Below, in pieces: positions 12,470 through 56,998 of a stretch of DNA of 64,000 nt. The notes below the pieces were generated by a model, which saw nothing but the letters and a program-made list of their open reading frames with translations, did no database searches and was not told the DNA's origin. Origin of the DNA: Anaerococcus sp. Marseille-P3915 (GTDB taxonomy: Bacteria > Bacillota > Clostridia > Tissierellales > Peptoniphilaceae); assembly GCF_900258475.1 (NCBI RefSeq), contig NZ_LT984887.1:1430181-1494180 (forward strand), given 5' to 3'. A program made the position numbers and the translations under genes. Each line of letters opens with the position of its first letter. Positions within the stretch are counted from its first letter, which is position 1.

Positions 12470-12713
12470 AAGCACCCCTCCTTCCATTTCGAGTGTAACG
12501 AGAAATCTCATTATCAGGTTTATAAAAGGTTCTGTATTTACATCGGTGATTGGTTTATATAGCCTTCGAATATAGTAAATTGTCGCTCTTAGTCTGGCTT
12601 AGAATTTGAGTTTTCGTAATAGGTCTCTCGACCGCGCTCGAGACAAGGGGTAATGAAGGAAGCTTATAAAACTTCCCACTCCTACCTTGCTTCGACTTTC
12701 GTGGCAAGCCCGT

Positions 12714-12793
12714 CCGAATACCGCTTCTTCGAAGCTCTCCGTGCTACCGCACTATTATTCGGCATAAACATGCCAAATCAAGGCATGTTTATG
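12714..12793 (+). repeat. Multi-hairpin covarying repeat, copy S1
   Basis: An outer stem CCGAATA / TATTCGG encloses hairpin 1 (GCTTC-TTC-GAAGC) and hairpin 2 (GTGCTACCGCAC). Immediately after comes hairpin 3 (12763-12793) with a CATAAACATGCC arm and an AAATCAA loop. It has the same architecture as S2-S4 with different paired bases. Confidence 0.75.
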
Positions 12794-12977
12794 TGGCTCG
12801 GAGAGGACAAGTCTATTAGAAATGCTTTAATGTTACTATTTATTATGAACCAAGTACAGGTTTATTTTCACAAGCCTTCGAATATAATGGTATGTCGTGA
12901 TTGGTTTATCCTTAATTTATTAATTTAGTGCCTAGATGGACCGGTGTAGATACAAATCTCATTACATACTCTACTGA

Positions 12978-50155: not shown

Positions 50156-50205
50156 TTCGCCAAAGGGGGAGGGCCAAGGACCCTTTCGCATGGGTCCTCA
50201 TCGGA

Positions 50206-50289
50206 CGGAAACCCGTTTGCTACGCAAACTCCTCCGTGCTACCGCACTATGTTTCCGGCATAAACGCCCCAAATCAAGGGGCGTTTATG
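50206..50289 (+). repeat. Multi-hairpin covarying repeat, copy S2
   Basis: Outer stem CGGAAAC/GTTTCCG around hairpin 1 GTTTGC-TAC-GCAAAC and hairpin 2 GTGCTACCGCAC. Hairpin 3 (50259-50289) has arm CATAAACGCCCC and loop AAATCAA. It is inserted in the left arm of fold-back copy 2 relative to copy 1. Confidence 0.78.
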
Positions 50290-50999
50290 TCCCCCTTAAA
50301 CCCCTCCCCGTTACACCCCGCAAGCGACTCCTTAGCGGAGGGCAAAATATGTAGATTTTTTTCAAAAATCTTCTTTAGTATAGCAGTTTGCTTCGTATGT
50401 AGGTGGCCTTGTTCTTACTGATTTAAAATCAAAAATCCCCTAAAAATCACAATCTAGTCCAAATAGGAATTTTATAGTTACTTGTCATCTTAGTAGTTAC
50501 AATATTTTTATTTAAGTATGGTTGTCAGTGTGATTTTCTTAACGGTGACTTTTTATTTTAAATCTCCCCATAGATTAGTATTTTAGACCCTATTATCGCA
50601 ATGTTTGCCAAAGGCAAACGAGCCTTAGCCCTACTTTGACGTCGATATTCTCTCAGAATACAGAATAATTCTCCCATGGTCGTGAGATTTTGTAAATGGA
50701 GATGCCGTTAAGAAAATCTCCTGACGCACGAGTACAAATTATAATTCTGTAACTACTGAGATGTAGAGTATATACAAAACATAAATTTGGACTAGATTGA
50801 GATTTTTAGGCATCGGAATGTCAAAATCAGTAGGAATAAAGATGGCTAGTACAAAGAGTTTTGCCTACTTATAGAGGATTGCCGTTAGGCAATCTTCACT
50901 GTTCGCACTCCGCCTAAGGAGCAGAGGGGGTGAGGGAAAAGGGGGTTTAAGGGGGAAATGTAGGACTCCCCAAAAGTTGTAGCTAGAAAAGAGGCTGCA

Positions 51000-51548
51000 A
51001 TGAAAAAATATAGTTTAGAATTAAAGAAAAAAGTAATAAAAGAATACGAAGAAGGCGAAATAAGTTTAAATAAATTAGCAAGAAAATATAAAATAAAAAG
51101 TCCCAAAAGCATAAGAGAATGGGTAAGAAAAAGCAAAATATTTGGTGAAACTAGTCTAGAAAATCCTAAAATCAACGAATATCCTTTAGAAATAAAGCAA
51201 AGTGTGATAAAATGTGCCTTAACAGGAGATTTAAATTTTAGGGAAATATCTGATAAATTTGGAATAAGAGATCCGAAAACAGTAAGTTCTTGGGTAAAAA
51301 ACTTTCAAAAAGAAAAAAACTTCCCTAAAATCAATCTAACAATAGATTTAAAGGAAGAATACTTAGACATGAAGAAGAAAAATAAAAAGAAAGACTACAC
51401 CGAAAAAGAAATCCAAGAAATCCTAGAAGAAAACCTCCACCTAAGAATAGAAAATGACTATTTAAAAGAACTCAGGAGGTTGGTATTAGAAGAAGACTTG
51501 ACAGATGCGATAAACAATACAAACAAACCAGAGCAATCTGCAAAGTAA
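51000..51548 (+). CDS. IS3-like transposase OrfA (HTH)
   Basis: 182 aa. Two helix-turn-helix units (LKKKVIKEYEEGEISLNKLA and IKQSVIKCALTGDLNFREIS, each followed by a W-V motif) bind the IS ends; a leucine-zipper-like helix closes the protein. The T-TTA-AAA heptamer at 51461-51467 in the zero frame is a classic -1 slippery site from which an OrfAB fusion would be made. Confidence 0.85.
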   Translation: MKKYSLELKKKVIKEYEEGEISLNKLARKYKIKSPKSIREWVRKSKIFGETSLENPKINEYPLEIKQSVIKCALTGDLNFREISDKFGIRDPKTVSSWVKNFQKEKNFPKINLTIDLKEEYLDMKKKNKKKDYTEKEIQEILEENLHLRIENDYLKELRRLVLEEDLTDAINNTNKPEQSAK

Positions 51549-51619
51549 TAACCAGCCTCCGTGAGAACTATCAATTAAAAGACATACTAAAAGTAGTAAA
51601 AATAAGCCAATCAACCTAC

Positions 51620-52432
51620 ATGTACTGGCAAAGAAAAGAAAAAGAAGAAAATCCAGACGCTGAAATACTAGAAAAAATACTAGAAATAAGAAAAAAACAT
51701 GAAGATTGGGGATGTAAAAGAATCCATGGATATCTAAGCAGAAGCATAAAAATAAACATAAAAAAAGTTCATAGAATAATAAAAGAAAATAACCTACAAG
51801 TAAGAACATATCACAAGAAAAATGGAAAATACAACTCATATAGAGGAGAAGTAGGAAAAGTAGCAGACAATATAATAGATAGAAATTTCAAATCAGAAAA
51901 ACCACACAAAAAAATAACAACAGACACAACAGAATTCAAATACTATGAAAAAGACAAATCAAACAACTATCAAATAAAAAAACTTTACTTAAACCCATAC
52001 TTAGATATGTACAACTCAGAAATAATAAGTTATTCAATAAGTAAAAGCCCAAACTATGCAGCAGTAGAAAAAGCCCTAGATAAAGCATTAGAAATAACAA
52101 AAGATCAAACAGAAGTAATCTACCATTCAGACCAAGGCTGGCTGTATCAGATACCAAGATATGTAGAAAAGTTAAAATATAAAGACATAATCCAATCAAT
52201 GTCAAGAAAAGGCAACTGCCTAGACAACTCCATAATGGAAAACTTCTTCTCAATAATAAAGCAAGAAATGTACAACAAAAAAACATTTCATAGCTACAAA
52301 GAATTAGAAAGAGCAATAATTAAATACATGGACTATTACAACAATGAACGAATAAAAGAGAAATTAGGCTTTATGAGTCCAGTAGAATATAGAGAAAATA
52401 GGTCGAAAGAAAAAATCAGTATATTATCTTGA
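51620..52432 (+). CDS. IS3-like transposase OrfB (DDE integrase core)
   Basis: 270 aa as an independent frame, but homology extends upstream to the slippery site at 51461 (RRLDRCDKQYKQTRA onward), so the real product is probably the OrfAB fusion. Retroviral-integrase-like core: D in KITTDTTEF, D in IYHSDQGW, E in NFFSIIKQE; HTH_21 region EDWGCKRIHGYL before it. Ends shortly before the right IS terminus and looks intact. Confidence 0.9.
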   Translation: MYWQRKEKEENPDAEILEKILEIRKKHEDWGCKRIHGYLSRSIKINIKKVHRIIKENNLQVRTYHKKNGKYNSYRGEVGKVADNIIDRNFKSEKPHKKITTDTTEFKYYEKDKSNNYQIKKLYLNPYLDMYNSEIISYSISKSPNYAAVEKALDKALEITKDQTEVIYHSDQGWLYQIPRYVEKLKYKDIIQSMSRKGNCLDNSIMENFFSIIKQEMYNKKTFHSYKELERAIIKYMDYYNNERIKEKLGFMSPVEYRENRSKEKISILS

Positions 52433-54892: not shown

Positions 54893-55705
54893 CTAATAAT
54901 ATCTATTTAATCTTAAATGTCTATATTTAACTGGTGGCAAGTAACCTAAGGATCCATGGATCCTTAGGTTGTTGTACCAGTAAACATACTCTGATAGTTC
55001 TAATTTTAGTTGATTTAAACTTCTAAATTCTTTCTGATAAACAAATTCTGTTTTCATTACCTTATTAAATGCTTCAGCTACAGCATTATCATAAGGACTT
55101 CCTTTTTTGCTTAAGGATCTTTCTATTCCAAATACAACTAGGATTTTATCTATGCTCTTATTATCAAATTCTCGTCCTCTATCTGTATGGAATATTTTTA
55201 TTTTATTTAATGGATATCTTATTGAGTAAATTGCTTCTTTTACTAATTCAGCACTTTTATTTTTACCTGCTGCATAGCCTATTATTTCCCTGTTGTGTAA
55301 ATCTATTATTGCACATATATAGTTCCAGCTATTTCCTACTCTTACATAGGTTAAGTCACTTACACATGCTTCTAAAGATTCTCTATTATCAAAGTGTCTG
55401 TCTACTTTATTTTTTATTTGTTTATTGTTACATGTAGTTTTTTCTACCTTGTATTGTTTTACTGTATAGCTTGAGATTAAGGCGTGTTTTTTCATTACTT
55501 TACATATTTTTCTTCTTGATGCTATTATGCCTTGATTTTCTAGTTCTACTTTGATTTTTCTAGATCCATACGCGTTTTTACTTTTTCTGAATATTTCTTT
55601 GATTTTCTCTTCTAAAAGCTCTTCTGTTTTTAGGTTGTTTTTAGATTCTTCTTTGTTTATATGATAGTATATTAAGCTTCTTGTTATTCCTAAAAACTTA
55701 CACAT
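54893..55705 (-). CDS. IS3-family transposase OrfB (DDE)
   Basis: 270 aa. HTH_21-like N-terminus (SKNAYGSRKIKVELENQG), then rve core: D in ACVSDLTYV, D in IFHTDRGREF, E in AFNKVMKTEFVY; C-terminal WYNNLRIHGSLGYLPP. Reading continues upstream in the -1 frame from the OrfA end ([20 protein letters not shown]), so a fusion product from the A5G slippery site is expected. Confidence 0.93.
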   Translation of the reverse strand: MCKFLGITRSLIYYHINKEESKNNLKTEELLEEKIKEIFRKSKNAYGSRKIKVELENQGIIASRRKICKVMKKHALISSYTVKQYKVEKTTCNNKQIKNKVDRHFDNRESLEACVSDLTYVRVGNSWNYICAIIDLHNREIIGYAAGKNKSAELVKEAIYSIRYPLNKIKIFHTDRGREFDNKSIDKILVVFGIERSLSKKGSPYDNAVAEAFNKVMKTEFVYQKEFRSLNQLKLELSEYVYWYNNLRIHGSLGYLPPVKYRHLRLNRYY

Positions 55706-56484: not shown

Positions 56485-56567
56485 GGTAAACACCCCTTGA
56501 TTTGGGGTGTTTGCCCCGACATCTAGCGCGATAGCTCGGATAAGCTTGCGAAGCAAGCGGGATGTCG
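56485..56567 (-). repeat. Multi-hairpin covarying repeat, copy S3
   Basis: Minus orientation. Outer CGACATC/GATGTCG stem, hairpin 1 GCTTGC-TTC-GCAAGC, a variant hairpin 2 (GAGCTATCGCGC), hairpin 3 with an AAACACCCC arm and AAATCAA loop. Confidence 0.75.
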
Positions 56568-56772: not shown

Positions 56773-56855
56773 TTCAAAGCCCCTTGATTGGGGCTTTGAA
56801 GGCTGAAATATAGGGCGGTAGCCCGAAAGAGTCTGCGAAGCAGACGGATTTCAGC
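56773..56855 (-). repeat. Multi-hairpin covarying repeat, copy S4
   Basis: Minus orientation. Outer GCTGAAAT/ATTTCAGC stem, hairpin 1 GTCTGC-TTC-GCAGAC, hairpin 2 GGGCTACCGCCC, hairpin 3 with TTCAAAGCCCC arm and AATCAA loop. Confidence 0.78.
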
Positions 56856-56921: not shown

Positions 56922-56998
56922 TGGTGGGGCTTCAGGGACTCGAACCCTGGACCTACCGGTTATGAGCCGGGCGCTCTAACCGACTGAGCTAAAGCCCC
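56922..56998 (-). tRNA. tRNA-Met (CAT)
   Basis: Acceptor GGGGCTT/AAGCCCC, anticodon loop CTCATAA, encoded CCA. Elongator-type (pairs at position 1-72), in contrast to the initiator at 59022. Confidence 0.95.

Follow-up and report, generated by a model that had tools for sequence, protein, structure and literature searches.

The window, by which we mean the whole 64-kb stretch of DNA analysed, contains four copies of a repeat referred to here as the core (Table 1). The core is about 84 bp long (80 bases in copy 1) and consists of two adjacent hairpins, the first of which, formed by an outer stem, usually holds two smaller hairpins in its loop, while the stem of the second measures about 12 bp and in most cases closes the loop AAATCAA. 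All four copies listed in a preliminary description of this DNA are present, with ends that agree exactly or to within 1–2 bases, and each folds into the layout proposed there, an outer stem of 7–8 bp that encloses two hairpins, with a third after it. The minimum free energies correspond to z-scores of -5.5, -6.2, -4.3 and -7.2, and for none of the copies was any of 200 shuffles as stable as the native fold. The loops TTC, CTACCG and AAATCAA, which had been called fixed, are nearly but not wholly so: hairpin 1 has the loop TAC in the copy at 50206, the hairpin 2 motif reads CTATCG in the copy at 56485, and the hairpin 3 loop is AATCAA in the copy at 56773.

Table 1. Core copies and adjoining features of the window
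Feature	Position	Strand	Basis or detail
Core copy 1	12714..12793	+	sequence, fold, R1 match
Copy 1, outer stem	12714-12720/12756-12762		
Copy 1, hairpin 1	12723-12735		
Copy 1, hairpin 2	12741-12752		
Copy 1, hairpin 3	12763-12793		loop AAATCAA 12775-12781
H2 repeat interrupted by copy 1	12706..12808	+	AAGCCCGT 12706-12713, TGGCTCGGAGAGGAC 12794-12808
Larger repeat enclosing copy 2	50163..50297	+	arms AAGGGGGA 50163-50170, TCCCCCTT 50290-50297
Inner hairpin GGACCC/GGGTCC of larger repeat	50178-50197		upstream of copy 2 core
Core copy 2	50206..50289	+	sequence, fold, R1 match
Core copy 3	56485..56567	-	sequence, fold, R1 match
Core copy 4	56773..56855	-	sequence, fold, R1 match
Intact tRNA-Met(cat) gene beside copies 3 and 4	56925..56998	-	Rfam tRNA; ARAGORN gives 56922-56998

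Copy 1 interrupts H2, a second hairpin repeat (AAGCCCGTCCGGCTNATGGAGGACC) that was also seen at the loci L024, L030, L035 and L043. By our reading, uninterrupted H2, AAGCCCGTCCGGCTNATGGAGGAC, can pair as AGCC-CGTCC-GGCT, so that copy 1 would sit in the loop of H2. The larger repeat around copy 2, with its AAGGGGGA/TCCCCCTT arms, has relatives both with and without a core, and at locus L089 a core-less counterpart is identical at 57 of 60 positions. The host of copy 3 appears to be a tRNA-Met-like fragment, with CTCATAACC before the core and AGGT after it, and that of copy 4 a second such fragment, adjoining the intact tRNA-Met gene. Near copies 2, 3 and 4, at 51000-52432 and 54893-55705, are genes for transposases of the IS3 type (rve, HTH_Tnp_1).

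Spread in the genus and the level of pairing

A covariance model built from the four window copies (R1), as the preliminary description had proposed, finds further copies in the same genome and in the genus. In the window it returns the four known copies and nothing else at E <= 5, and in the whole genome 20 rows at E <= 10; full-length matches with E < 1e-13 make up 14 of them, and the others are short, interrupted or weak. A survey of 61 genomes at E <= 0.01, comprising the own genome, 30 more of Anaerococcus, 6 of the family and 24 of the order, gave matches in 26 of the 31 Anaerococcus genomes (1 to 58 each, thus 0 to 58 over the genus) and in none of the 30 other genomes of family and order. 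Two of the richest genomes, G007 and G013, have 38 and 33 matches, and G021 has one divergent match (E 3e-5). In 1.2 Mb of Anaerococcus sequence, about 10 kb of it counted twice, AAATCAA forms a loop closed by 8 bp or more in 79 places, at least four of which look like chance stems, and six permuted heptamers are closed in this way 0 to 4 times each. A second covariance model from 35 sequences (R2), applied to 391 genomes of the class, matched two Anaerococcus genomes and, weakly (E 0.007), one genome of another family, and found nothing in the Anaerococcus genome G023; since this survey scored 11 candidates per genome under strict filters, weak relatives could be missed. Two copies with their flanks had no match among plasmids, and three pattern matches in viral contigs have, by eye, neither the outer stem nor hairpin 1. 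Among 80 of 94 pattern stretches, the 14 from outside both Anaerococcus and Lachnospiraceae were put down to chance by eye, as was the pattern match at L135, and several Lachnospiraceae stretches, e.g., L103, belong to a different repeat. The statement that the layout fits no described family agrees with Rfam, in which the window copies have no match at the gathering score and eight loci, three of them from Lachnospiraceae, have none at E <= 10.

The copies compared below derive from 104 matches in the loci analysed, which correspond to 97 distinct places because seven were counted in two loci; they are a selection, mostly of 80–86 bases, from which shorter, interrupted and weaker copies and some identical tandem copies were excluded. 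In an alignment of 35 representatives of less than 88% identity drawn from the 104 matches, 94.9% of 1004 cells are paired, 28 of 29 base pairs are altered on both sides, and in 500 shuffles the native value was not reached for any of five covariation measures; sliding the partner strand lowers the pairing to 28–46%. The stems had been said to vary yet stay paired, a claim to be given up if additional copies failed to keep pairing, and it holds since many further copies do.

It had been left undecided whether this pairing is selected as RNA or as single-stranded DNA. If an RNA strand were under selection, G-U pairs would be expected to be favoured. Among the mispairs of the 35 representatives, however, 17 are G-T, 18 A-C and 33 of other kinds, and among those of the 97 copies 40 are G-T, 47 A-C and 83 other, while the acceptor and T stems of tRNAs gave 38 G-T against 1 A-C (Fisher p 1e-6 and 3e-9 for the contrast with the cores). 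The control comprised 43/46 distinct tRNAs, mostly of Anaerococcus, in which 9 or more of 12 pairs are Watson-Crick, and was favoured by the tool, as ARAGORN itself accepts G-U. Because G-T equals A-C in the cores where selection as RNA would lead one to expect G-U, the pairing seems to be maintained either in the DNA or on both strands. The symmetry points to DNA rather than RNA structure, although an RNA function on both strands would give the same picture, and extruded or single-stranded DNA may still be the selected form. Comparing G-T with A-C is a simple way of separating covariation at the DNA level from that at the RNA level, and helps to avoid mistaking palindromic repeats for new RNAs.

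That the core is nevertheless a structured RNA, either a small RNA or a cis element, transcribed from its many loci, is in our view improbable. Its folds are very stable, compensatory changes are present, and the 5S-like units around some copies have, by eye, hairpins resembling terminators after them, all of which would suit such an RNA. Against it stand, besides the lack of any excess of G-T of the kind seen in tRNA, the range from 0 to 58 matches per genome within a single genus, the absence of an Rfam match and the nesting of copies within one another.

Host repeats and junctions

The cores are mostly intergenic: in a count that took in frames open at the ends of loci, 92 of the 97 copies overlap no open reading frame of at least 100 aa, three overlap one partially and two fully, and 75% of random positions fall inside such frames. 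On contig 4 of G001 (394 kb), tandem frames flank 11 of 22 cores, convergent frames 10 and divergent frames 1; the corresponding numbers for every gap of 60 bases or more on this contig are 82, 26 and 31. In eight genomes, with the terminus assumed to be opposite dnaA and only matches on the dnaA-bearing contig considered, the cores lie towards the origin when counted by fifths of the replication arm (24, 22, 26, 8 and 1), and are scarce in the terminus-proximal fifth (1 of 81).

Contig 4 of G001 also carries 68 complete REP-like hairpins of the form ATCTCTC[GC]A..[TC]GAGATGGG, the loops of which fall in discrete size classes. Short loops measure 6–8, 15–16 or 23–25 nt. Loops of 56–57 nt consist of a mini double hairpin, one hairpin of which is of the AAATCAA kind seen in the core, those of 79–91 nt are the core (the one of 79 nt being truncated), those of 106–107 nt equal the 23-nt loop plus a core, and those of 172–173 nt are a core within hairpin 2 of another core; further classes measure 126 and 190 nt. 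An autonomous copy was not found. On this contig, the base hairpin has 13 left halves with no right half within 400 bases, none of them evidently split by a gene; most appear to be chance occurrences or hairpins whose right half has changed.

The core also interrupts copies of 5S rRNA-like sequence at CACCTGT/TATACCGAAC. Locus L030 has three tandem units of this kind adjoining an intact 5S gene. In G018, eight cores, of which three lie on one strand and five on the opposite one, are crowded into about 1.4 kb (L231:9888-11279) that follows an intact 23S-5S and also contains several pieces like 5S rRNA, where more than one 5S loop at a time seems to bear an inserted hairpin. Another core interrupts the duplicated end of what we take to be a uvrB-like gene, and since it is the duplicated fragment that is interrupted, an in-frame insertion into the gene was rejected. 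A core at L016 is itself broken, in its hairpin 3 arm, by a third hairpin repeat (GCTCTCGGCCGCTAGGGC).

Core-less relatives with at least 80% identity across the joined flanks, which are treated as counterparts and do not prove the state before an insertion, were present for 72 of the 97 distinct copies and in 18 of 26 context clusters; within the sequence searched, the other 8 clusters had none. The number of independent insertions is bounded by the number of contexts and not by that of copies. Of the 18 clusters, 8 show no net difference in length at the junction, and the others a difference of 1 (5 clusters), -1 (3) or 2 (2); no target duplication was seen by eye. The clearest counterparts are CTCAC-T-TAGTCG (57 of 58 positions identical), TTTCC-T-TCCCCC (45 of 46) and GGCAGC-T-TTGTAC (43 of 45), and in each of these three clusters A plus the core stands where the counterpart has a single T. 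The mini element likewise replaces the T of ACAT-T-CGCTCG by A plus itself, and where the core lies in hairpin 2 or in 5S sequence the next base changes to T as well. This exchange of T for A plus the core, without duplication, is seen in the cleanest pairs and is exact in few clusters, namely 3 of the 8 that lack a length difference. An A before the core is found in 28 of 38 contexts, a T after it also in 28 of 38, and both jointly in 8 of the 18 clusters.

Insertion into hairpin loops is a partial preference and no rule. A stem lies directly at the junction in 9 of 26 contexts as compared to 2.7 in shuffles, and the summed junction-stem score was reached by 1 of 1000 shuffles, which keep base composition alone and not dinucleotides. 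Looser versions of the test gave a weaker signal, 33 of 50 contexts in one (shuffle mean 20.3, largest of 100 shuffles 29) and 8 of 38 in another, where 10% are expected.

Candidate enzymes and proposed mode of copying

The preliminary description suggested mobilisation by a REP-type transposase (TnpA-REP) and a search for Y1/HUH genes. Such a search does yield a Y1 gene in the own genome, but this is an IS200-sized frame of 157 aa with, by eye, other flanking hairpins. That a Y1 (HUH) transposase, working in trans on hairpins of single-stranded DNA, mobilises the core as a repeat of the REP/REPIN type would be consistent with a DNA-level hairpin, with the surrounding AGATCTCTCGAC..GCTCGAGATGGG repeat, which stands in REPIN-like inverted pairs by eye, and with Y1 genes in 21 of the 31 Anaerococcus genomes. 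We regard it as unlikely: 4 of the 5 core-less genomes have Y1 genes too, open frames of 241–242 aa that match Y1 and that we read as RAYT-like occur in just 3 of the 31 genomes, one of which (G023) is without copies, and in none of the three does a core lie at the ends of these genes. Moreover, IS200-type ends were rejected as the source of the core, as five such loci (in G018, G001, G000, G024 and G027) bear other hairpins by eye, and the fork-biased insertion characteristic of IS200/IS605-type elements was not seen in the eight genomes placed relative to dnaA as above, where 41 cores are co-oriented with the fork and 40 opposed. At the RAYT-like loci themselves (L217, L218 and L219), GGGGACGTTCA-like and GAGCGTCCCC-like flanks were observed in two of three, those of the third being shorter.

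An IS110 (DEDD) transposase was likewise rejected; at E <= 0.001 it is found in 18 of the 31 genomes, 15 of which score over the cut-off; 4 of the 5 core-less genomes have it, and it does not correlate with cores. Reverse transcriptases of the RVT_1 family are present in 17 of the 26 genomes with cores and in 0 of the 5 without, an association that is suggestive only, with a one-sided hypergeometric p of about 0.012 that takes no account of kinship; RVT_1 is one of three mobile-element families tried. Some group II intron-type reverse transcriptases enter hairpin-bearing sites, and retrotransposition in trans by enzymes of this type would fit the RVT_1 distribution. We consider this route doubtful, given that nine core-bearing genomes are without RVT_1, among them the rich G007 and G013, that two of the five core-less genomes are less than 90% complete, and that the pairing signal is not RNA-like.

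Among 34 pairs of nearest copies, 40 single and 6 double differences were counted at paired sites and 72 differences at the 30 unpaired columns; double changes prevail between distant copies and single ones between close copies, so that pairs seem to change stepwise. Replication slippage or template switching alone, perfecting and multiplying palindromes with neither selection nor insertion chemistry, would agree with the strand-symmetric pairing, the tandem 5S-like copies and what we read as a deletion between direct repeats in the core-in-core at C4:227966, but is hardly probable given this stepwise pattern and the dispersal of copies in unrelated places.

The reading that we prefer, with a probability of roughly 60%, is that the core is a non-autonomous, nesting mobile DNA double hairpin that is copied at the DNA level, by an enzyme that is only putative, and enters hairpin-rich repeats. 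The core is dispersed in one genus, is mostly intergenic and keeps its pairing through compensatory changes without strand preference; it has core-less counterparts in many surroundings and nests in its own hairpin 2. Its mobility is deduced from the comparison of sequences. New copies would be made at the DNA level, perhaps by a copying or template-switching step while the hairpins are extruded, entry would exchange one T for A plus the core without target duplication, and the core would persist best inside existing hairpin repeats. Composites, such as a core in a REP-like hairpin or a core in a core, may then spread as units.

A farther-reading version is put forward tentatively, as a possibility that we would not bet on: the core could represent a class of self-nesting bacterial elements that enter hairpin loops, replacing one pyrimidine by A plus themselves without target duplication, by a DNA-level mechanism that no transposase is known to use. 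If so, successive insertions would grow matryoshka-like structures in REP hairpins, in copies of 5S rRNA and tRNA and in earlier cores.

Comparison with known systems

In manner the Anaerococcus core resembles known kinds of repeats, but it lacks those features tested here by which REPs and MITEs are defined. Like REP, REPIN and BIME sequences as described in the excerpts cited here (PMC3733652, PMC3116915, PMC8266576), it is a DNA palindrome outside genes, and its host hairpin stands in inverted pairs; in some bacteria, REP dimers lie within longer palindromes (PMC3733652). The core differs from REPs in that it is longer, has three hairpins and has no linked RAYT. REPs are defined in the cited excerpt by a GTAG or CGTC tag beside a palindrome of 20–40 bp (PMC3733652). 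No such tag was seen by eye beside the core hairpins; in part of the copies the hairpin 2 loop (CTACCG) reads GTAG on the opposite strand, but there the tetranucleotide is within the loop. The terminal inverted repeats and target-site duplication of MITEs were not found either, the ends of the core sharing just A and T.

A repeat in Lachnospiraceae metagenome-assembled genomes (L090 to L168), of which 35 distinct stretches in 30 loci match its long hairpin, has a layout similar to that of the core. Most of the copies examined have a 7-bp outer stem, two short hairpins and then a long AAATCAA hairpin, while several stretches lack part of this plan; unlike in the core, AAATCAA lies in the stem rather than in the loop. 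R1 matches it only weakly, in 13 of 15 loci with E from 3e-4 to 0.12. As the search pattern fixed hairpin 2 and AAATCAA, homology with the core is unproven, and the two may be either related or convergent. The Lachnospiraceae repeat is abundant, is in places tandem at about 125 bp, e.g., at L136:1837-2165, and is often preceded by a TATAAT-like stretch.

The closest analogues of the core, judged by description and not by sequence, would be the double-hairpin and palindromic elements of organelles. Hairpin and double-hairpin elements are described from sponge and fungal mtDNA; those of Allomyces and sponges are, like the core, adjacent hairpins that are dispersed and occur also in rRNA genes, and for Allomyces the cited part of the account reports no flanking duplications (PMC2800124), in line with the core junctions, at which none was seen by eye in the alignments. 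They differ in being organellar where the core is bacterial, in that the first hairpin of the core holds two further hairpins, and in that the exchange of T for A plus the element does not figure in the part of the description cited (PMC2800124). The palindromic repeats of Volvox carteri share recurrent loop motifs, palindromes nested within palindromes and larger composites at several places with the core, but are single hairpins of organelle genomes, and the excerpt describing them contains neither the covariation nor the junction analysis given here for the core (PMC2670323). Among the best literature matches, in a search that left most subscription journals outside its scope, there was no recognisable account of these repeats in Anaerococcus. 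The nested hairpin elements of organelles are puzzling since, according to the excerpts cited, their way of moving is unsettled (PMC2670323, PMC2800124). Anaerococcus offers a bacterial setting in which to study elements of this kind, where at least 31 species, a copy number graded from 0 to 58 and paired filled and empty sites make the mechanism approachable by comparative genomics and genetics.
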